Of a DNA stretch of 64,000 bases, positions 52,579 to 61,624 are shown piece by piece. Every line of letters starts with the position of its first letter. The first letter of the stretch is position 1. The notes beneath the pieces were generated by a model, which was not told the origin of the DNA, did no database searches, and worked only from the letters and a program-made list of their open reading frames with translations. This stretch comes from Catenulispora acidiphila DSM 44928 (lineage in GTDB: Bacteria > Actinomycetota > Actinomycetes > Streptomycetales > Catenulisporaceae). The stretch is from the NCBI RefSeq assembly GCF_000024025.1, contig NC_013131.1, forward strand, positions 5,456,001 to 5,520,000, in the 5' to 3' direction. The position numbers were made by a program, and so were the translations under genes.

Positions 52579-54336
52579 TCACCTCTCGATGAGCATGAGC
52601 GCCGCGAGCAGGACGATCGCCCCGCCGACGGCATATGCGGTGTAGTCGTTGACCGATCCGGTGTGCAGCGCGCGCAGCAGATCCAGCACACGCGGACGGC
52701 GCCGGCGAAGAACCTGCCACGCGAGCAGGATGCCGAGCCCGACGCTGAGCAGAGCGATCGTCAGCTCCTGGGGATCGATGTAGGCGAAGCCCGGATGCAG
52801 CTGCGTGATGCGTCCGGCCTGGTTCAGCACGGCGGCGGCGTATTGGCCGGGGTTCAGCAGTGCCGAGACCGCCGGATCGACGATGGTGTCCAGCACGTAG
52901 GCGGGCAGAACGCCGAACAGCACGCAGCACCCCGCCAGGGTCCCCAGGCTGAAGCGCATGCCCGGGCGCAGGAACTCGCGGCGTTCGTAGTCTTCGCGGC
53001 GCGGCTTCAGGAACGCCAGCCACATCGCGCGCGCCAGCGCCGCGATCGTGATCAGCTGCGCGACCAGAAGCAGGACGTAGGGCAGGTACTGATCGCTGTC
53101 GCGCAGTCCGGTGTGGATCAAGCCCACGGACACGTAGCCGTTGAAGGGAGGTACGCCGGCGATCGAGGCGACGCCGATCCCGAACGCGACCGTCAGCCCG
53201 GGCCAGCTGCGCATCAGGCCGCCCATGCGCGACAGCTCCGTCTCGCCGGTACGGTGCACGATCGCGCCCGCGCACAGGAACAGCAGTGTCTTGAACAACG
53301 CGTGGTTGATCAGGTGGTAGACACCCCCGGCCACCCCGGCCGGGTCGGCGGTGGCCAATCCGGCGACGATCACCCCGACCTGCGAGACGGTGTCGTAGGC
53401 CAGCAACCGCTTCAGGTCGTCCTGGACCAGGGCGAGGCACGCGCCGACCAGCGCCGAGGCCACCCCCAGCACCATCAGCGCGCCGAGCACCGGGGTGTGC
53501 GCGGCGGGATAGATCTGCAGGGCGATCCGGGTGATCCCCACGATGCCCAGGTTGACCATCAGCCCGGAGAACAAGGCCGAGACCGGTCCCGGTGCCGCGG
53601 TATGGGCGTCGGCGAGCCATCCGTGGAACGGCACCAGACCCGCCTTGGTGGCGAAGCCCGCGATGAACAAGCCCAGGGCGAGCAGATCGGCTGCCTGAAG
53701 CGGTCCGGTGAGAGCAGTGGCGAGCTGGCCGTAGTTCAGCGCGCCGTGCGTGTTGTAGAGCAGACCGGCCGCGATGAAGACGCAGAACCCTGCGATGGTG
53801 GTCAGCACCAGGATCTTGAAGGCGGCTTCCAGGGCGGGCGGACGCTCCAGGAAGAAGCCGGTCAGACCGTAGCTGGCCAGCGCCGCGACCTCGAACCAGA
53901 CGAACAGGTCGACGGTGTCTGCGGTGAGCGCCGCCCCGATCAGCCCGGCGAGCAGCAGCTGGACCAGCGCGGCGAAGCCGCCCAGTTCCCGGGCGCCCAG
54001 ACCGCCGAGCTCGGACAGGGTGTACAGGACCAGAAGCGCGCCGATGCCGGCGCTCAGCAGCGCGAACGTGAGCCCGAACGGGTCCGCCGCGAAGGCGACG
54101 CCCAGCGCGAAGCCGCGCACCGGTACCCAGCCGCCGAGATAGTGCACCAGCACCCGTCCGCCGAACACCGCGGGCGAGACCACGACGAGCAGCGCGAGGG
54201 TCCCGAGCAAGAAAGTCAGAGAGCTGACCAGCGCCAGACGCGGGGAGAGCCGGGCGACCAGCGGTGCGACACACGCGCCGGTCAGCGGGATCGCGACCGC
54301 CAGCGGCAGCAGGGAGGCCAGAGCCGCGTCGCTCAC
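52579..54336 (-). CDS. mnhD: Mrp antiporter subunit D (NuoN/L-like)
   Basis: A 585-residue membrane protein with some fourteen helices of the proton-pumping antiporter family: FVWFEVAALASYGLTG, the Lys in FATKAGLVPFHGWLADAHTAAPGPVSALFSG and LVQDDLKRLLAYDTVSQVG. Together with the B, C, E, F and G subunits it exchanges Na+ (or K+) for H+ across the membrane. Its ATG overlaps the mnhC stop by four bases. It is the only large NuoL/M/N-like subunit in this operon. Confidence 0.92.
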   Translation of the reverse strand: MSDAALASLLPLAVAIPLTGACVAPLVARLSPRLALVSSLTFLLGTLALLVVVSPAVFGGRVLVHYLGGWVPVRGFALGVAFAADPFGLTFALLSAGIGALLVLYTLSELGGLGARELGGFAALVQLLLAGLIGAALTADTVDLFVWFEVAALASYGLTGFFLERPPALEAAFKILVLTTIAGFCVFIAAGLLYNTHGALNYGQLATALTGPLQAADLLALGLFIAGFATKAGLVPFHGWLADAHTAAPGPVSALFSGLMVNLGIVGITRIALQIYPAAHTPVLGALMVLGVASALVGACLALVQDDLKRLLAYDTVSQVGVIVAGLATADPAGVAGGVYHLINHALFKTLLFLCAGAIVHRTGETELSRMGGLMRSWPGLTVAFGIGVASIAGVPPFNGYVSVGLIHTGLRDSDQYLPYVLLLVAQLITIAALARAMWLAFLKPRREDYERREFLRPGMRFSLGTLAGCCVLFGVLPAYVLDTIVDPAVSALLNPGQYAAAVLNQAGRITQLHPGFAYIDPQELTIALLSVGLGILLAWQVLRRRRPRVLDLLRALHTGSVNDYTAYAVGGAIVLLAALMLIER

Positions 54337-54701
54337 CCCCGCAGCTCCCTGACGCGGTCGGCGTCCAGGGTGCGGCGGTGCTGCGCGATACGCACCACGA
54401 CCGACAGGAACACCGCGGTGACCGCCACTCCGATGACGATCGCGGTCAGGCAGAAGTTCTGCAGGACCGGATCGGCGACGTTCCCCGCCGCCAACTGCTC
54501 CGGGCTTCGGCCCTTCGGCGGGTCGACCAGGACCGGCGCGGTCGAGCCGGAGCGGTAGGCCATGGAGATGAACAGCACGTAGGTGGAGCTCTCCATCAAG
54601 GACAGCCCCATCACCATCTTGATCATGTTGCGGCGCGTCAGGACCGTGTACAGGCCCAGGCAGAACAGCGCCGCGGAGGCGAGGTAGTTGACGACGATCA
54701 T
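54333..54701 (-). CDS. mnhC: Mrp antiporter subunit C (NuoK-like)
   Basis: A 122-residue protein with three helices, matching MnhC/NuoK: LFCLGLYTVLTRRNMIKMVMGLSLMESSTYVLF and a later LTAIVIGVAVTAVFLSVVVRI. It forms part of the membrane proton/cation path next to subunit D. It overlaps both neighbours by four bases, so translation is coupled. Confidence 0.93.
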   Translation of the reverse strand: MIVVNYLASAALFCLGLYTVLTRRNMIKMVMGLSLMESSTYVLFISMAYRSGSTAPVLVDPPKGRSPEQLAAGNVADPVLQNFCLTAIVIGVAVTAVFLSVVVRIAQHRRTLDADRVRELRG

Positions 54702-55702
54702 CGGCGGCTTCCTCCGCTCTGATCAGGACCCTGATTGTCTTCGCCGTCGCTGTCGCCGTCCTCGTCCGGCGTCCAGTCGTGCGTCATGCCCAGCACCGCG
54801 AAGACCGCGATCATCAGGCCGGTACCGACCTCGATCAGCTCTCCGACGCTGAACAGCTGCGCGACACCGCCGGAGCGGATCGTCCCGACCGGCGCGAGCG
54901 GCAGCCAGTTCGCCGAGAACGAGCCCTTGAGCAGCAGGCCGAGGGTCTCGGCGCCGATGATCAGCGCGGCGCCTGCCATCTCGATACCTTCCAGCAGCCC
55001 GGGACGGATCACGCCGGCGATGCGTTTGCGCCCGAAGCCGGCGTAGACCAGCAGCGCCACCCCGAGCATGACGGCGCCGCCCGGGAACCCGCCGCCGGGC
55101 GAGTATCCCCAAGCGACCAAGTAGAGGCCGGTGACCGCCAGCACGGGAGCGGCGGTACGGATGGCGGTGCGGATCACGACGCTCATCGCGTGGGCGCGTT
55201 CCGGCGCCGGGGAGCCGACGGGCTCGGCGTCAGGGGTCTCGGGACGGCGCAGCCCGGCCGCGCCGCCCACCGCGTCGTCGGGCTCGCCCGCCTCCTCCTT
55301 CTCCGCGGCGCGCGCCTGCTCTTCTTCTTGATCGCGCCGCTCGTGCGGGTCCACCTCCGCCTGTTCCCGGCGCCCGGCGGTCTCCTCCCCGAAGTACCCG
55401 CGGCGCGGCTCGCGCGGCCGGGAGATCACGATGACGCTGATGACGGCGGCCAGCAGCAGGAACGTCTCCCCGAACGTGTCGAAACCCCGCGTGCCGTAGA
55501 CGACCTCGTTGACCGGCTCGGACAGCTTCCACCGCGGCAGCGCCACCTCCAGGGCGTAGCGTGCGACCGGCGGCAAGGCGGCATGGTCCCGCTGCAACCG
55601 GAGGAAGCCGACCGCCAGGACCGCCGCCATCCCGGCGGTGAGCAGCGCCCCGGCGGCGACCCGGTGGTGCGGCTCGTGGTCGGCGCCGGCCCGCCGGCTC
55701 AT
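54698..55702 (-). CDS. mnhB: MnhB-domain protein with MbhE-like N-terminus
   Basis: A 334-residue protein in two parts. The N-terminal part (residues about 1-100) has one or two helices and GTRGFDTFGETFLLLAAVISVIV, like MbhE or the end of MrpA. A charged linker of about 75 residues rich in Glu and Arg follows. The C-terminal part (from about 170) has the MnhB pattern PGGGFPGGAVMLGVALLVYAGFG with three to four helices. The fusion probably replaces the C-terminal domain of MrpA. It overlaps its neighbours on both sides. Confidence 0.87.
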   Translation of the reverse strand: MSRRAGADHEPHHRVAAGALLTAGMAAVLAVGFLRLQRDHAALPPVARYALEVALPRWKLSEPVNEVVYGTRGFDTFGETFLLLAAVISVIVISRPREPRRGYFGEETAGRREQAEVDPHERRDQEEEQARAAEKEEAGEPDDAVGGAAGLRRPETPDAEPVGSPAPERAHAMSVVIRTAIRTAAPVLAVTGLYLVAWGYSPGGGFPGGAVMLGVALLVYAGFGRKRIAGVIRPGLLEGIEMAGAALIIGAETLGLLLKGSFSANWLPLAPVGTIRSGGVAQLFSVGELIEVGTGLMIAVFAVLGMTHDWTPDEDGDSDGEDNQGPDQSGGSRR

Positions 55703-55980
55703 CGCCGCTCCCGCTCCGCGAGATCGCCGGTGTCGCGGACTTCGGCGCGCGCCTTCCCGATGGCGACCAGATACAGCACCGGCAACGCGATCGACCCGAC
55801 CACGATCTCCGAGTGCGCGTCGTCCGGGGCGCCGAGGACCACGAACAGCAGGGACAGGAACGCGCCGACCGCCGACAGCGCCATGACCGCGCCGCTGAGG
55901 TTCCGCAGGCGCACCACGAGCACGGCGCAGCCCAGAGTCAGCGCGAGCAACAGGTAGTCCATCAGCCAGAACACGGTCAT
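55699..55980 (-). CDS. DUF4040 (MbhD-like) antiporter subunit
   Basis: A 93-residue membrane protein with three helices; RNLSGAVMALSAVGAFLSLLFVVLGAPDDAHSEIVVGSIALPVLYLVAIG matches DUF4040/MbhD, which also forms the penultimate domain of MrpA. It is encoded as a separate gene between mnhG and mnhB, overlapping the latter by four bases. It works as part of the multi-subunit antiporter. Confidence 0.9.
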   Translation of the reverse strand: MTVFWLMDYLLLALTLGCAVLVVRLRNLSGAVMALSAVGAFLSLLFVVLGAPDDAHSEIVVGSIALPVLYLVAIGKARAEVRDTGDLAERERR

Positions 55981-55986
55981 GGAGCC

Positions 55987-56379
55987 TCAGTCCTCTTCCT
56001 GGTCCTGGTTCTGGTTCTCGTCCTGGTCCGCGCGGCGCTCGCGGTCGCGCCGTTCCCGGGCCTCGGCCGCCTCATCGCGCACGGCGCCGTTCCACATGGG
56101 CACGCCTGTTTTATAGGCGGCGCGTGCCAGCGCGTGCGAGGCGGCGGGGTTCAGGAGCAGGAGCACGAACGCGGTCAGCAGAGCCCGGCTGGAGTAGGAG
56201 CTGAGCACGCCCTCCCCGACGACCAGCGCGATCAGCGCGGGCAAGGCGCCCATGGTGATGGTTTTGGAGGAGCACTGGATACGGCAGTACAGGTCGGGCA
56301 TACGCAGGATGCCGACGGCGCCGGACAGGGAGAAGCCGAGGCCGACGCAGGCCAGCACGAGGACGATCGCGGTCTTCAC
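55987..56379 (-). CDS. mnhG: Mrp antiporter subunit G
   Basis: A 130-residue protein with three helices and the MnhG pattern GAVGILRMPDLYCRIQCSSKTITMG. A charged C-terminal tail rich in Arg, Glu, Gln and Asp extends into the cytoplasm. It overlaps mnhF by four bases and precedes the DUF4040 gene by six. Confidence 0.92.
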   Translation of the reverse strand: MKTAIVLVLACVGLGFSLSGAVGILRMPDLYCRIQCSSKTITMGALPALIALVVGEGVLSSYSSRALLTAFVLLLLNPAASHALARAAYKTGVPMWNGAVRDEAAEARERRDRERRADQDENQNQDQEED

Positions 56380-56636
56380 AGCAGCTCCCGTTCCAGGTAG
56401 CGGGCGAACACGATGGCTCCCAGGTAGCTGAACGAGGCGAACCAGATGGCGACGTCGAGATAGATCGACCGGTCGGTGTAGGCGGCGTAGAAGAACACCG
56501 ACAGCGCGGCCTGGGTGCAGACGGTGTTCAGCGCCACGATCCGGTCGGCGACCGTCGGTCCCAGCGCCAGCCGGAGGACCACCAGAGCGCCGATGGCGAT
56601 CTCGGCCAAAGCGAGCGCCCCGTACACCGTGTGCAT
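56376..56636 (-). CDS. mnhF: Mrp antiporter subunit F
   Basis: An 86-residue protein with three helices; VLRLALGPTVADRIVALNTV is the family motif. The start MHTVYGALALAE at 56636 shares one base with the mnhE stop codon (TGATG). It is part of the antiporter complex in the membrane. Confidence 0.93.
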   Translation of the reverse strand: MHTVYGALALAEIAIGALVVLRLALGPTVADRIVALNTVCTQAALSVFFYAAYTDRSIYLDVAIWFASFSYLGAIVFARYLERELL

Positions 56637-57154
56637 CAGCCGCGTTCCTCCGGCAGGAAGCGCTCCAGCGGCCCGTTGATGCGCTCGCGCGCCTGCGCGG
56701 CGTCGCGCGGCGGGACGTCCACGGCGTGATAGAGCAGCCGTCCGCGGGCGGCGTCGACGTCGACGAGCTGGTTGTCCACGATCAGGGAACTGACGACCCC
56801 GACGACCGTGAGCCCGAGCGCACCGCGCTGCGTGGTCGGCACGATGACCATCCCGGACCGCAGCGGCAGCGACGGCGACCAGACGCGCCGGGCCAGGAGC
56901 ACGTTCGCCCAGACCACCCGCCCCAGGGCGACGACCACGATCCCCGCCACCCGCGCGGCCACGCGGGGATCCAGCAGCCGCCACGGACCCGCCACCGCGC
57001 CGAGCGGCGCGAGCGCCACCGCGACGGCCACGCTGACCACCGCTCCCACCGCGATCTGCTCCGCGGTCCGGGTCCACGTCAGCAGCACCCAGACACCCAT
57101 GCACCAACAGGCCAGCGCGAAGACACGCACCAGGGCGTTGCTGCGCTTGCTCAT
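56636..57154 (-). CDS. mnhE: Mrp antiporter subunit E
   Basis: A 172-residue protein with two or three helices, then the soluble MnhE domain with LPLRSGMVIVPTTQRGALGLTVVGVVSSL and YHAVDVPP. It is the first gene of the E-F-G-DUF4040-B-C-D operon. GGAGGAG lies six bases before the ATG at 57154, which decides the start. A GGGTAT -10-like element lies about 50 bases upstream. Confidence 0.92.
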   Translation of the reverse strand: MSKRSNALVRVFALACWCMGVWVLLTWTRTAEQIAVGAVVSVAVAVALAPLGAVAGPWRLLDPRVAARVAGIVVVALGRVVWANVLLARRVWSPSLPLRSGMVIVPTTQRGALGLTVVGVVSSLIVDNQLVDVDAARGRLLYHAVDVPPRDAAQARERINGPLERFLPEERG

Positions 57155-57716: not shown

Positions 57717-58124
57717 CTAACGGCTGCGCCACCGACGGATGCGCATGAACGCCAGAATCGCCGTCACTATCGCGAAGTAAATACGGAGTCGGTCACGCAG
57801 GGACAGTGTCGGGCGCTCGCTCGAACTCCCAGCGGGCGGCGCGGACTTGTGGACCTGCCCGGACGCGGTGGCGGCGGCCCAGCGGATCAGGCGGGGCACT
57901 GAGCCGGCTGCCCGGCCCGCGCGGGTCGCGATCGCGGCGGCGGCGATCTCCGCGCCGGCGGTCTTCTCTCGGACGCGGCCCTTGACGTCGGTCTTGGCGT
58001 GCAGAGCGGTGACGGTCTCGGCCAGCTCGTCGCGGTCGTGGGCGACCTGCTCGCGCAGCTTCTCGACGGTCGCCGGGCGGCGCGCGCCGTTCGCGGTGGG
58101 ATTCGCAGTGGGATCAGTGCTCAT
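57717..58124 (-). CDS. DUF3618 family protein
   Basis: A 135-residue protein. The EKLREQVAHDRDELAETVTALHAKTDVKGRVREKTA pattern, a long charged helix, is typical of DUF3618; a membrane helix (YFAIVTAILAFMRI) lies near the C-terminus. Such proteins are common next to YtxH-like and holin-like stress proteins. The start ATG shares one base with the stop TAA of the holin-like gene (TAATG). Confidence 0.85.
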   Translation of the reverse strand: MSTDPTANPTANGARRPATVEKLREQVAHDRDELAETVTALHAKTDVKGRVREKTAGAEIAAAAIATRAGRAAGSVPRLIRWAAATASGQVHKSAPPAGSSSERPTLSLRDRLRIYFAIVTAILAFMRIRRWRSR

Positions 58125-58531
58125 TACCGACCGCCTTCCTTGATCACGGCCACGTCGGCCTTCACGCTGTCCACGGTCTCCTCCACTACGGGTACGACGC
58201 GTCCCACCTGCTTCTTGCCGACCAGTGCCAGGACCGCCGCTGTCAGTCCCGCGGCCACGCCGACGATCAGCGCCGCCAGCCACACCGGCATCGCCAGGGC
58301 GAGCGCGGCGATCACCGCGGCGGCGACGGCCTGTACCGCGACGAACGCCAGCACGCCCGCGCCGCCGATCAGGCCGCCGCCGAAGCCCAGGGTGCGGCGG
58401 TTGCGGGCGAACTCGGCCCGGGCGGTCTGGAGTTCGTCGCGCGCCAGCTGTCCGAATTGGTGCGCGGCTTGCGTCAGCAGCGTCGCCAGGTGCTCGTCGG
58501 CGTGCGTCTCGCGCCGGTCGTCGATGCTCAT
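58124..58531 (-). CDS. Phage-holin-superfamily-III-like membrane protein
   Basis: A 135-residue protein. A charged helix (LLTQAAHQFGQLARDELQTARAEF) leads to two strong membrane helices, as in the actinobacterial holin-X/phage holin family. It is not phage-linked here; such proteins are chromosomal stress-associated membrane proteins. AAGGAG precedes the ATG at 58531. A SigF-like promoter lies about 35 bases upstream. Confidence 0.87.
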   Translation of the reverse strand: MSIDDRRETHADEHLATLLTQAAHQFGQLARDELQTARAEFARNRRTLGFGGGLIGGAGVLAFVAVQAVAAAVIAALALAMPVWLAALIVGVAAGLTAAVLALVGKKQVGRVVPVVEETVDSVKADVAVIKEGGR

Positions 58532-58563: not shown

Positions 58564-58616
58564 GTAACCGGCGTACCGGGCGTCAAACGTCGTTTGACCG
58601 CATGGGATGCGGGCAG
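58564..58616. promoter_or_regulatory. Divergent SigF/SigB-type promoters sharing a palindrome
   Basis: The perfect palindrome GTCAAACGTCGTTTGAC at 58582-58598 holds a GTTT -35 element on each strand. On the plus strand GTTT (58592-58595), 15 bases, GGGCAG (58611-58616) points to the SRPBCC gene. On the minus strand GTTT (58588-58585), 15 bases, GGTTAC (58569-58564) points to the holin-like gene. The reference is GTTT-N14-16-GGGTAC; the minus -10 has one mismatch and the plus has two. Confidence 0.6.
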
Positions 58617-58668: not shown

Positions 58669-59655
58669 ATGAGCGACGTGACCAAGTCCGTGGACGTCGA
58701 AGTCCCGCTGCGGACCGCGTACAACCAGTGGACGCAGTTCGAGTCCTTCCCGGAGTTCATGTCCGGTGTCATCGCCATCCGGCAGCTGGACGACCGGCAC
58801 ACGCACTGGGTGACCGAGGTCGCCGGCGCGCGGCGGGAGTTCGACGCCGAGATCGTCGAGCAGCTTCCCGACGAGCGCATCGCCTGGCGCAGCGTCGACG
58901 GCGACGTGCGGCACAGCGGGATCGTGACGTTCCGGCCGCTCGGGGACCACACCACGCGCGTCACGGTGGACCTGGAGTGGGAGCCGGAGGGACTGCTGGA
59001 GAAGGCCGGCGGCGCCATGGGCGTGGACCGCCTTCAGGTCAAGGCGGACCTGGAACGCTTCCGCCAGTTCATCGAGGAGCGCGGCAACGAGACCGGCCAG
59101 TGGCGCGGCCAGGTCCCCGAAACGCAGGTCGCCGCCGTGCCGACCGGGAACGCCGAACCGCTGGCCGGCACGGCGGCGCCGCTGGCTGACGCGCAGCAGG
59201 CAGCCGGCCCGGACCCGTCGGCCAACGACGTCGTCGACGTCCTCGTCGCGCAGCACGCGCAAGTCAAGGACCTGATGGCGCGGACCGCCGCCTCCGAAGG
59301 CGCGGACAAGCAGCGGCTGTTCACCGCGCTCGTGGATCTGATCAAGACCCACGAGAAGGGCGAGCAGCGCGTGGTGCACCCGGTGACCCGCTCCAGCGTC
59401 GAAGGCGGCGCCGCGACGGCGAACGCCCGGCTCGGCGAGGAAGAGCGCGCCGACCAGCTGATCGCCGAGGTGAAGACCATGACCGCGGACTCCCCCGAGT
59501 TCGACGCCTGGTTCGAGCAGCTGCGGCAGGCCGTGCTGGACCACGCCGAGCACGAGGAGCGCGAGGAGTTCCCCAAGCTGCGCAGGGAACTGACTGCCGC
59601 CCGCCTGCACACGATGGCTGAGGAGCTCGTCGCGGTGCAGACCGCGCACAACTGA
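58669..59655 (+). CDS. SRPBCC-hemerythrin fusion protein
   Basis: A 328-residue fusion. Residues 1-145 form an SRPBCC/polyketide-cyclase-like domain (VDVEVPLRTAYNQWTQFESFPEFM...), and residues 185-325 form a hemerythrin-type HHE four-helix domain with His196, His229, His237, His292 and His295 as likely di-iron ligands. A Pro/Ala linker joins them. It may bind a hydrophobic ligand and sense or bind oxygen, NO or iron. GAGGTGAAGCA lies before the ATG. It is divergent from the holin-like gene and next to the sigma factor genes. Confidence 0.87.
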   Translation: MSDVTKSVDVEVPLRTAYNQWTQFESFPEFMSGVIAIRQLDDRHTHWVTEVAGARREFDAEIVEQLPDERIAWRSVDGDVRHSGIVTFRPLGDHTTRVTVDLEWEPEGLLEKAGGAMGVDRLQVKADLERFRQFIEERGNETGQWRGQVPETQVAAVPTGNAEPLAGTAAPLADAQQAAGPDPSANDVVDVLVAQHAQVKDLMARTAASEGADKQRLFTALVDLIKTHEKGEQRVVHPVTRSSVEGGAATANARLGEEERADQLIAEVKTMTADSPEFDAWFEQLRQAVLDHAEHEEREEFPKLRRELTAARLHTMAEELVAVQTAHN

Positions 59656-59758: not shown

Positions 59759-60556
59759 TCAGTTCTTCCCGACCTCCAGTCGGTCCCGCAAGCTGCCGAT
59801 GATCTGCGACAGCAGGCGGGAGACCTGCATCTGCGAGACTCCGATCTCGGCGCCGATCTGTGCCTGGGACATGTTGCGGAAGAACTTCATCAGCAGGATC
59901 CGCTTGTCGCGCGGGCTGAGTTCGGCCAGCAGCGGCTTGAGGGCTTCCCGGTCGACGACCGAGTCGAAGCCGGGGTCCTCGTCGCCGAGGAGGTCCCCCA
60001 GGCTGGCGCCGTCGCCGTCGGCCATGGCCACCGGCACGTCCAGCGAGGCGGTGTGGTGCGCGGCGCTGGCTTCGTAGGCCTCGGCGACCTCGTCGGCCGA
60101 CAGATCCAGCCGGCGGCCGATCTCCGCCGCACTCGGCGCGCGACCCAGCTGCTGGGTCAGCTCCCGCTCGACAGCCCGCACCGCCAACGCGTTCTCCTGA
60201 GCGCGGCGGGGAACGTGCACATGCCAGGTGGTGTCCCGGAAATGGCGCCGCACCTCGCCGGCGATCATCGGCGTGGCGTAGGTGAGGAACGTCGCGCCGT
60301 AGTCGGGGTCGAAGTTGTCGACGGCTTTGACCAGGCCCAGATAGGCGACCTGCTCCAGATCCGCCTGCGTTTCACCGCGCAGGCGGAACCTGGCCGCCAC
60401 GAAGCGGGCATAGGACATGTACTCGCCGATGACGTACTCGCGCAGTGCCTCGTACTCGCTGTCGTCGGGCGACATCTTCCTCAGACGCGCCAGCGCAGCC
60501 CGGGCCGCAGCCCGTTCACGGGCCAGTTCCTCCGGGGCGACAGGGATGGGCGCCAC
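59759..60556 (-). CDS. SigB/SigF-type alternative sigma factor
   Basis: A 265-residue sigma-70 group 3 factor. Region 2 (YARFVAARFRLRGETQADLEQVAYLGLVKAVDNFDP, then TYATPMIAGEVRRHFRD), region 3 and region 4 (LSPRDKRILLMKFFRNMSQAQIGAEIGVSQMQVSRLL) are all present. It is the general-stress/sporulation type of Streptomyces SigB/SigF/SigG. The GTG at 60556 follows the stop of the anti-sigma gene by one base, the usual rsbW-sigF order. It should read the GTTT-N15-GGG-type promoters in its neighbourhood. Confidence 0.95.
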   Translation of the reverse strand: MAPIPVAPEELARERAAARAALARLRKMSPDDSEYEALREYVIGEYMSYARFVAARFRLRGETQADLEQVAYLGLVKAVDNFDPDYGATFLTYATPMIAGEVRRHFRDTTWHVHVPRRAQENALAVRAVERELTQQLGRAPSAAEIGRRLDLSADEVAEAYEASAAHHTASLDVPVAMADGDGASLGDLLGDEDPGFDSVVDREALKPLLAELSPRDKRILLMKFFRNMSQAQIGAEIGVSQMQVSRLLSQIIGSLRDRLEVGKN

Positions 60557-60557
60557 G

Positions 60558-61049
60558 TCAACCGCCGCCCGCGCGGCGCTTCAGGATCTCCACCCGCACC
60601 GCCGTACCCTCGACGCGCCAGACGATGTCGTCCACCAGCGCGGACAGGATGGTCCAGCCGAAGTCGTCCTTCCGCGGCGCGACGACGTCGCGGGCCTGGC
60701 GGCTGAGCACCACCTGGAGCGCCGAACCGTCGAGGACGAAGCGGCACTCCAGGTCTCCGTCGGGGGCATCGGTGGCCGCTGCATCGGTGGCGCCGTCGGC
60801 GGCTGCGGCTCCATCGGCGGTCCGCAGCTCCCGGACCGTGTGGCGCAGCAACAGGCCACCTGCCTCGTCCACCGCCAGACGCACGTCGGCGACCTCCGGC
60901 AGGGTGCAGCCGAGTCTGGTCGCCAGGTGCGCGCTGGCCGACCGGATCACGGGCAGGTAGTCGGGATCGGCCGGCACCTGGATCATCACCGTCTCGGCCA
61001 GGGCCCCGACCTGCGGGGATACCTGTTCAGATCGCCCTTGAGGATCCAT
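60558..61049 (-). CDS. RsbW/UsfX-like anti-sigma factor
   Basis: A 163-residue ATPase-fold anti-sigma factor. The helix DVRLAVDEAGGLLLRHTV corresponds to the GHKL N-box, but the usual Asn (EAxxNAxxH) is replaced by Leu. The later DDFGWTILSALVDDIVW fits the degenerate G-box of mycobacterial UsfX. It should bind the sigma factor encoded next, and its kinase activity is doubtful. Start at 61049 with GGAGAG upstream. An Ala/Asp-rich insert lies at about 80-100. Confidence 0.88.
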   Translation of the reverse strand: MDPQGRSEQVSPQVGALAETVMIQVPADPDYLPVIRSASAHLATRLGCTLPEVADVRLAVDEAGGLLLRHTVRELRTADGAAAADGATDAAATDAPDGDLECRFVLDGSALQVVLSRQARDVVAPRKDDFGWTILSALVDDIVWRVEGTAVRVEILKRRAGGG

Positions 61050-61267
61050 GCCAGCCCACTCTCCGACCCGTCGTGTCCCAGCGGTGCGCCTGCCTTCGCC
61101 ACCGGCCGGCCAGGCCAGCTTACTCACGAAACTAATAACAGGAGAACTTTTTCATGTATAGATTGACAGAGGTGTCGTGGGCGTCGAAGACTGGTGGCAG
61201 CGGCCGTCGCCGGCTCCGCGTGGTCAGCGCGGAGGACGTGGAGAACGTGGAGTACTAGGAGAAGACC

Positions 61268-61624
61268 ATGGAGTTCTCTTACGCTGCGAAGCAGGCCGCG
61301 GGCCGCGTGGTCGTGACCCTCGCCGGCGATGTGGACCTCGCCGCCTTCCGGCGCTTCGAGGCGGGTCTGGCCCAGTCCTGGGACGGCTCGACGAACCTGA
61401 CCATCGACTGCTCCGCGGTCACTTTCCTGGACTCGATGGGCCTGCGCGTCCTCGTGCGCGCCCGCCAGCGCGCGGCCGACCACGACCGCGACGTCACCCT
61501 GGCCGCGCCCTCGCGACCGGTGCTCAGGGTGCTGCAACTCGCCGAGGTCACCAGCCTGTTCCCGATCGACGACCGCACCGCCGATGTCGTCGCCGGGGAA
61601 GCACCGTCCGGCAGCCCGACCTGA
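61268..61624 (+). CDS. STAS-domain anti-sigma factor antagonist
   Basis: A 118-residue STAS protein. The core strand pattern VVVTLAGDVDLAAFRRFE and the phosphorylation site TFLDSMGLRVL with Ser56 are typical of RsbV/SpoIIAA. In its unphosphorylated form it should pull the anti-sigma factor away from the sigma factor. It is divergent from the rsbW-like gene. AGGAGAAG lies six bases before the ATG at 61268. Confidence 0.93.
   Translation: MEFSYAAKQAAGRVVVTLAGDVDLAAFRRFEAGLAQSWDGSTNLTIDCSAVTFLDSMGLRVLVRARQRAADHDRDVTLAAPSRPVLRVLQLAEVTSLFPIDDRTADVVAGEAPSGSPT

Follow-up and report, generated by a model that had tools for sequence, protein, structure and literature searches.

Predicted outward-facing SigB/SigF-type promoters form a compact pair between two divergent gene units of Catenulispora acidiphila

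The window is the whole stretch of DNA analysed here, 64,000 nucleotides of Catenulispora acidiphila DSM 44928, corresponding to positions 5456001-5520000 of a genome that forms a single contig of 10,467,782 bases. Positions below are those of the window unless a genome coordinate is given. The genes around the region of interest are as follows.

57717..58124, minus strand: DUF3618 protein (PF12277), the second gene of the left unit, its ATG overlapping the left-gene stop (TAATG)
58124..58531, minus strand: left gene, actinobacterial Holin-X family (PF07332, Pfam), with its start codon 33 nt beyond GGTTA
58669..59655, plus strand: right gene, an SRPBCC (PF03364) and hemerythrin (PF01814) fusion of 328 aa, starting 53 nt beyond GGGCA
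59759..60556, minus strand: SigB/SigF/SigG-family sigma factor (TIGR02980, 266.6 bits against a curated cut-off of 234.35)
60558..61127, minus strand: probable RsbW-like anti-sigma factor (HATPase_c_2), start codon uncertain, its RsbW matches weak and far below cut-off
61268..61624, plus strand: STAS-domain anti-anti-sigma factor (TIGR00377, above cut-off)

A sequence-only reading of this DNA had described the left gene as holin-like and the right gene as an SRPBCC-hemerythrin fusion, and had placed a SigB/SigF-type sigma gene about 1.2 kb away; the Pfam and TIGR02980 matches bear this out. The hemerythrin part of the right gene (59230-59640) has a weak similarity to the PA2171 family of ribosome-binding persister proteins, at 36.1 bits against 190 and so below cut-off. 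Farther to the left, on the minus strand (52579-57150), a run of membrane-protein genes resembles a multi-subunit (Mrp-type) cation/proton antiporter operon when the translations are compared by eye.

Between the two divergent genes we find two sets of promoter elements facing outward from a palindrome.

58564..58569, minus strand: leftward -10, GGTTAC, then GCG
58585..58588, minus strand: leftward -35, GTTT
58582..58598, no strand: perfect 17-bp palindrome with 8-bp arms and a 1-bp centre, made up of the two abutting -35 regions
58592..58595, plus strand: rightward -35, GTTT
58611..58616, plus strand: rightward -10, GGGCAG, then CAG

The two GTTT boxes are 3 bp apart. Direct reading of the letters confirms a perfect palindrome with eight-base arms, GTCAAACG-T-CGTTTGAC, and a GTTT on each strand with a -10 exactly 15 bases outward on both sides, as had been claimed. 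A GGG-type -10 had been proposed for both promoters; this stands for the right one, which has GGG at positions 1-3 and A at position 5, and does not strictly hold for the left one, where GGTTAC has T at position 3.

The elements can be compared with SigB-family promoters of Streptomyces coelicolor, as given in the available part of PMC8346170. These too have a GTTT-type -35 and a -10 with G at positions 1 and 2 and A at position 5, and the GTTT (or GNNT) -35 is present on both sides here and conserved in relatives. GGG at positions 1-3 with A at position 5 is there called "almost invariant". C is tolerated at position 4 (GGGCAC, GGGCAT, GGGCAA), as in our right promoter, and GGT-type -10s occur (GGTAAA, GGTATA, GGTAAG in Table 2), several followed by NCG, as in our left promoter. 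T at position 3 is common in the present material, occurring in 21 of 36 distinct motifs collected with a pattern that allowed only G or T at that position. The S. coelicolor spacer after GTTT is 16 in six of 11 GTTT promoters, 14 in two, 15 in one and 17 in two (Table 2), against 15 here. The Bacillus subtilis SigB consensus quoted in the same source, GTTTAA-N12-14-GGG[A/T]A[A/T], shares the GTTT -35, the G-rich -10 and a spacing of 14-16 from GTTT to the -10, and differs in having A or T at position 4 of the -10, where GG[GT][CT]A has C or T.

We have asked how often such motifs occur and at which spacing. The extended rightward motif GTTTN14-16GGGCAGCA is found eight times in the genome, each time at N15, and never as the reversed pattern; over 14 family genomes there are 37 matches against seven reversed, with 32 of the 37 at N15. 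Many of the genes shortly after these matches appear from their translations, judged by eye, to be of stress type, including hemerythrin-like, SRPBCC, isochorismatase-like, trehalose-phosphate-synthase-like and anti-sigma-like proteins. In another 85 genomes, the remainder of the order, the extended motif shows hardly any enrichment: 81 matches stand against 63 in the control, and many of the 81 are one GTTTCGGGGG... sequence that recurs.

Spacing was compared directly in a 1.2-Mb sample of the genome that includes blocks at 3.0-3.4 Mb and 4.9-5.7 Mb, picked in the knowledge that GGGCAG matches lie inside them, so that the GGGCA counts from this sample lean upward. GTTT-N15-GG[GT][CT]A occurs 18 times there, and the average over 21 other spacings is 5.81. 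Broken down by -10, GGGCA peaks at N15 with 12 occurrences and GGTTA has four against a mean of 0.38, while GGGTA has one against 0.57 and no peak (three at N14). The whole-genome and family counts of GTTTN14-16GGGCAGCA are free of this choice of blocks, as are the sigma-locus counts given below. Over the whole genome GTTTN14-16GGTTA is not over-represented in total, at 19 matches against 17 in the reversed control; 13 of the 19 lie at N15, the leftward site among them, with three each at N14 and N16. The genome-wide motif suggested by the sequence-only reading, GTTT-N14-16-GGGTA[CT], turned out not to be the most fitting. GTTT-N14-16-GGGTA gives 30 matches against 15 reversed, distributed as 11 at N14, five at N15 and 14 at N16, where three share one identical sequence that we take to be 16S rRNA. 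It is GGGCA and GGTTA that peak at N15, and we reject GTTT-N14-16-GGGTA as a description of the two promoters, since it does not fit the sites here.

A less biased comparison of spacings uses the surroundings of SigB-type sigma genes of the family, a set of 30 loci (109 kb) chosen by sigma-factor similarity. GTTT-N15-GG[GT][CT]A is present there as 23 distinct sequences, with both promoters of the window counted, where other spacings average 0.52; if the three C. acidiphila loci are dropped, the figures become 20 and 0.43. The 23 divide into seven GGGCA, seven GGTTA, seven GGTCA and two GGGTA. GGTTA at N15 thus has seven occurrences against 0.10, or six against 0.10 without the own genome. In 12 of the 30 loci the sigma gene has the N15 motif on its own strand and no more than 1.5 kb upstream, where N10 gives three, N16 two and eight other spacings none; two loci at contig edges (L208 and L211, in which about 550 and 20 bases precede the gene) are scored as misses in that count. 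A third contig-edge locus, L200, has a site about 1.1 kb upstream.

Across 36 distinct motifs, taken from loci chosen by protein similarity and again including the window's own two, GTTT is followed by G in 26, the base before the -10 is C in 23, and G stands four bases after the A in 31. Position 3 of the -10 is T or G (21 and 15) and position 4 is C or T (26 and 10). As the search itself demanded GG[GT][CT]A, what is learned is limited to the flanking preferences and to the proportions of the bracketed bases. Together these data provide a testable general-stress promoter consensus for the Catenulisporaceae, GTTTG-N14-GG[GT][CT]A, with 15 bp from GTTT to GG. Judged by titles and abstract openings, we found no published general-stress or SigB promoter consensus for Catenulispora or its family.

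Each promoter is conserved with its own gene. Ten family loci encode SRPBCC proteins, of which one (L018) is cut by a contig end. Seven of the nine with full upstream sequence have GTTT-N15/16-GGGCA on the same strand, in six cases 38-64 nt before the start codon and in one 350 nt, before another gene; the motif is absent upstream at the remaining two (L024 and L036). Among 80 SRPBCC loci of actinomycetes at large, GTTT-N14/15-GGGCA occurs within 300 nt in 11, where every other spacing gives 0 or 1. The carriers are Microbispora (four), Planotetraspora (one), Paractinoplanes (three), Dactylosporangium (one), an Actinospica and a Catenulispora MAG; the last two also belong to the family set, and leaving out the two loci shared with that set gives nine of 78. 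Streptomyces-like SRPBCC loci have the motif in one of 20.

Only two others of the 14 family genomes, designated G027 and G025, have an orthologue of the Holin-X gene above 60% identity. GTTTG-CG...CGGTTA[C/A]GCG precedes the gene in all three, own included, with the -35, the GGTTA and the GCG extension invariant and spacers of 15, 16 and 15. Among more distant Holin-X homologues, three have GTTT-N15-GGTCA and six others lack the motif. The spacer is thus narrowly fixed: N15 on both sides in the window, N15 at the peak in the family, and N16 on both sides in G027. The computational analysis establishes which elements are present, how they are spaced and that each promoter is conserved as a unit of its own. 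It supports the proposed divergent promoters, two of SigB/SigF type whose -35 boxes abut and which have a SigB/F-type sigma gene nearby.

The palindrome behaves differently from the promoters. The window contains 29 perfect inverted repeats with 8-bp arms and spacers of 0-7, and three shuffles give 22, 17 and 25, so a palindrome of this size is a chance expectation here and unremarkable. Only the one at 58582-58598 has at least four A/T per arm (shuffles 0, 0 and 1), and it is the sole match to its own sequence in the window at up to three mismatches. The whole genome has no further copy with up to two mismatches and six further places with three; all strand-matches together number 14, fewer than the 30 of the reversed-pattern control. 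In G027 the same two genes diverge, and their GTTT boxes are 10 bp apart, against 3 here, and non-palindromic. In G025, where another gene adjoins the left gene, the left promoter is kept alone, with no rightward partner opposite. The earlier view of the palindrome as the element on which both promoters are built is therefore not supported, given its absence from these two relatives; its lack of conservation in relatives had been named beforehand as one of the outcomes that would count against the proposal. Because it is lost in G027 and G025 we regard the palindrome as incidental: two -35 regions of similar sequence (GTTTGAC) happen to adjoin, and the symmetry is best seen as a result of this. 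The conserved part is the promoters, and not the conspicuous palindrome.

Closely apposed promoter pairs are not confined to this locus. The pattern AAACN0-20GTTTN15/16GGKYA is matched 95 times in the 14 family genomes and the reversed pattern 11 times, part of the 95 being a repeated element in G027. Nine places are back-to-back pairs with a match on both strands, at gaps of 3, 3, 7, 8, 10, 14, 14, 15 and 16 bp; one is in the own genome, two are in G025, four in G027 and one each in G021 and G015, and the G015 pair, whose left gene starts at a doubtful GTG, may be a chance match. Three more pairs have gaps of 21-41 bp, including one before an SRPBCC paralogue of the own genome (4104222). Left out of these counts are a tenth pair (L221, in G013), which has a gap of 8 and one spacer of 17 bp, and three pairs whose boxes stand 70-87 bp apart. 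The flanking genes include Holin-X/SRPBCC twice (the orthologous pair), hypothetical/SRPBCC twice, SRPBCC/DJ-1-PfpI, and luciferase-like and AI-2E-transporter-like genes. In four of the nine pairs, GGTTA faces one way and a GGGCA leading to an SRPBCC gene the other. The 3-bp gap is also seen in one of the G025 pairs, where the genes on either side are entirely different. A recount in the own-genome block found one pair (the 58582 region) against none in 12 wrong-spacing controls; only for that block is the recount independent, as the nine pairs re-read were chosen because they had already been found.

The neighbouring sigma factor is a fair candidate as the reader of the predicted promoters, because a close relative also lies near in G027 and G025; in G027 the sigma gene near the same divergent pair has 78% identity. 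Two paralogues coexist with it in the genome, at G000:C1:3751774-3752550 (86% identical) and G000:C1:8357455-8358231 (85%), the former with GTTT-N15-GGGTAC about 580 nt upstream, and there are also more distant SigB/F-type sigma genes. In S. coelicolor, according to the part of PMC8346170 available, nine SigB homologues recognise overlapping sets of promoters, and the promoters of the different groups are without specific common features. The window's own anti-sigma/sigma operon (60558-61400, minus strand) has no GTTT-N14-16-GG[GT][CT]A in front of it. We therefore set aside autoregulation of this operon through the motif, for which the window offers no site, though 12 of the 30 family sigma loci do have one upstream at N15.

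Taken together, the locus is very probably a compact pair of outward-facing SigB/SigF-type promoters that would co-induce two divergent stress units. By analogy with the biology of the SigB family, stress would free a SigB/F-type sigma factor from its anti-sigma factor. The holoenzyme would then start leftward at GTTT-N15-GGTTAC, to express the Holin-X membrane protein and the DUF3618 protein, and rightward at GTTT-N15-GGGCAG, to express the SRPBCC-hemerythrin protein. Since it could open either promoter, both units would be expected to rise together. Sigma dependence and co-induction are what we infer from the nature of the predicted promoters.

The closeness of the GTTT boxes, only 3 bp apart, suggests that two holoenzymes would collide, and mutual exclusion of polymerases is plausible from this geometry. 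At high induction the two directions would then be likely to compete, as two holoenzymes could not fit together. Bidirectional promoters of Escherichia coli, in the part of PMC12825309 available, offer a comparison: a short DNA segment gives two divergent RNAs, pseudo-symmetrical sequences engage RNA polymerase in two orientations, and the polymerases may compete. Competition appeared there once one direction was substantially activated and was not seen at basal activity, so by analogy interference here may matter at full induction only. The arrangement differs from that of E. coli in that the two promoters have no common element and differing -10s and are of alternative-sigma type; the -35 regions are symmetrical in the window and not so in G027. 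Judged by titles and abstract openings, the literature gave no close parallel for overlapping divergent sigma promoters.

Two other readings would deny that there is a promoter pair at all. The palindrome might be the operator of a dimeric, for example TetR-like, transcription factor that represses both genes, with the promoter-like boxes coincidental or secondary. A perfect dyad between divergent genes is where an operator usually lies, and with at least four A/T in each arm it stands alone among the window's 8-bp-arm palindromes. A regulon operator would recur, and this dyad is unique in the genome with loose matches below control, which argues against one; its geometry is missing in G025 and in G027, where the half-sites have moved by 7 bp, so that it is neither conserved across orthologous regions nor repeated. 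In addition, the half-site GTTTGAC is already accounted for as the -35 region, and a scan of seven neighbouring proteins gave no match to a DNA-binding regulator family besides the sigma factor. We reject the operator as the main reading and consider it very improbable. Alternatively, only the rightward promoter is real, and the leftward boxes are a chance match arising from its -35 region. This would explain why GGTTAC deviates from the GGG rule and why the genome total for GTTT-N14-16-GGTTA does no more than match its control. It is difficult to reconcile with G025, which has the leftward boxes before the left gene where there is no rightward promoter to generate them, with the invariance of the left promoter in all three orthologues, or with the N15 peak of GGTTA in the sigma loci, and we regard it as highly unlikely.

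Two further readings accept both promoters and differ over what the pairing does. Different SigB/F-type paralogues might read the left (GGTTA) and the right (GGGCA) promoter, making the locus a sigma choice point in place of a co-induced pair. Near-identical sigma genes (85-86% identity) number at least three in the genome, beside others that are more distant, the -10 type is kept on each side (GGTTA in 3/3 left promoters, GGGCA in 7/7 right promoters that have the motif), and the same combination recurs before SRPBCC genes in the four pairs noted above. In S. coelicolor the sporulation-type SigF, SigH and SigN promoters keep GTTT better than the osmotic-stress ones (PMC8346170, available part), so some sorting of promoters exists. 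The nine homologues of that organism nevertheless have overlapping sets, and the sigma loci of the sister genera have GGTTA in place of the GGGCA, GGTCA or GGGTA of Catenulispora loci, which suggests that the -10 types are interchangeable; a choice point is unlikely. Selection of the abutting geometry for mutual polymerase exclusion, as a flip-flop or a noise-limiting device, is a further possibility that we think rather unlikely. Across the 14 genomes nine pairs have gaps in the 0-20 bp range (3-16 as observed) and three have gaps of 21-41 bp, G025 has another 3-bp gap at a locus with different genes, and the E. coli promoters compete when one side is strongly activated. This 9-to-3 preference is weak, however, with few genomes and four of the nine pairs from one of them, and short intergenic regions alone would favour close promoters. 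Moreover, the gap drifts between orthologues (3 and 10 bp), and basal activity in E. coli gave no competition.

A co-inducing promoter pair thus remains our preferred reading. It indicates that divergent stress genes can use one very short promoter region, and it offers a test case for competition between alternative-sigma polymerases. A broader speculation, which we think improbable as a whole, is that apposed outward SigB/F-type promoters, often GGTTA/GGGCA, are a recurrent design of Catenulispora and its sister genera: through competition, or by letting near-identical SigB paralogues choose, the pair would set how much of a membrane-protein unit is made relative to an SRPBCC-type unit in stress.

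Two repeated sequences were met in the search for apposed boxes. The element repeated in G027 reads AAACC...GGGTTTTCGGTTCGGTCCCCTCGGTCA and has eight occurrences among the matches listed, on contigs C28, C60, C147, C327, C402, C461, C633 and C701. A second sequence, AAACGTTTGATCCG...GGTCA, has a gap of 0, is shared by four relatives (G003:C228, G009:C220, G023:C61 and G011:C16), and is perhaps a conserved SigB-type promoter that starts inside a AAACGTTT palindrome.
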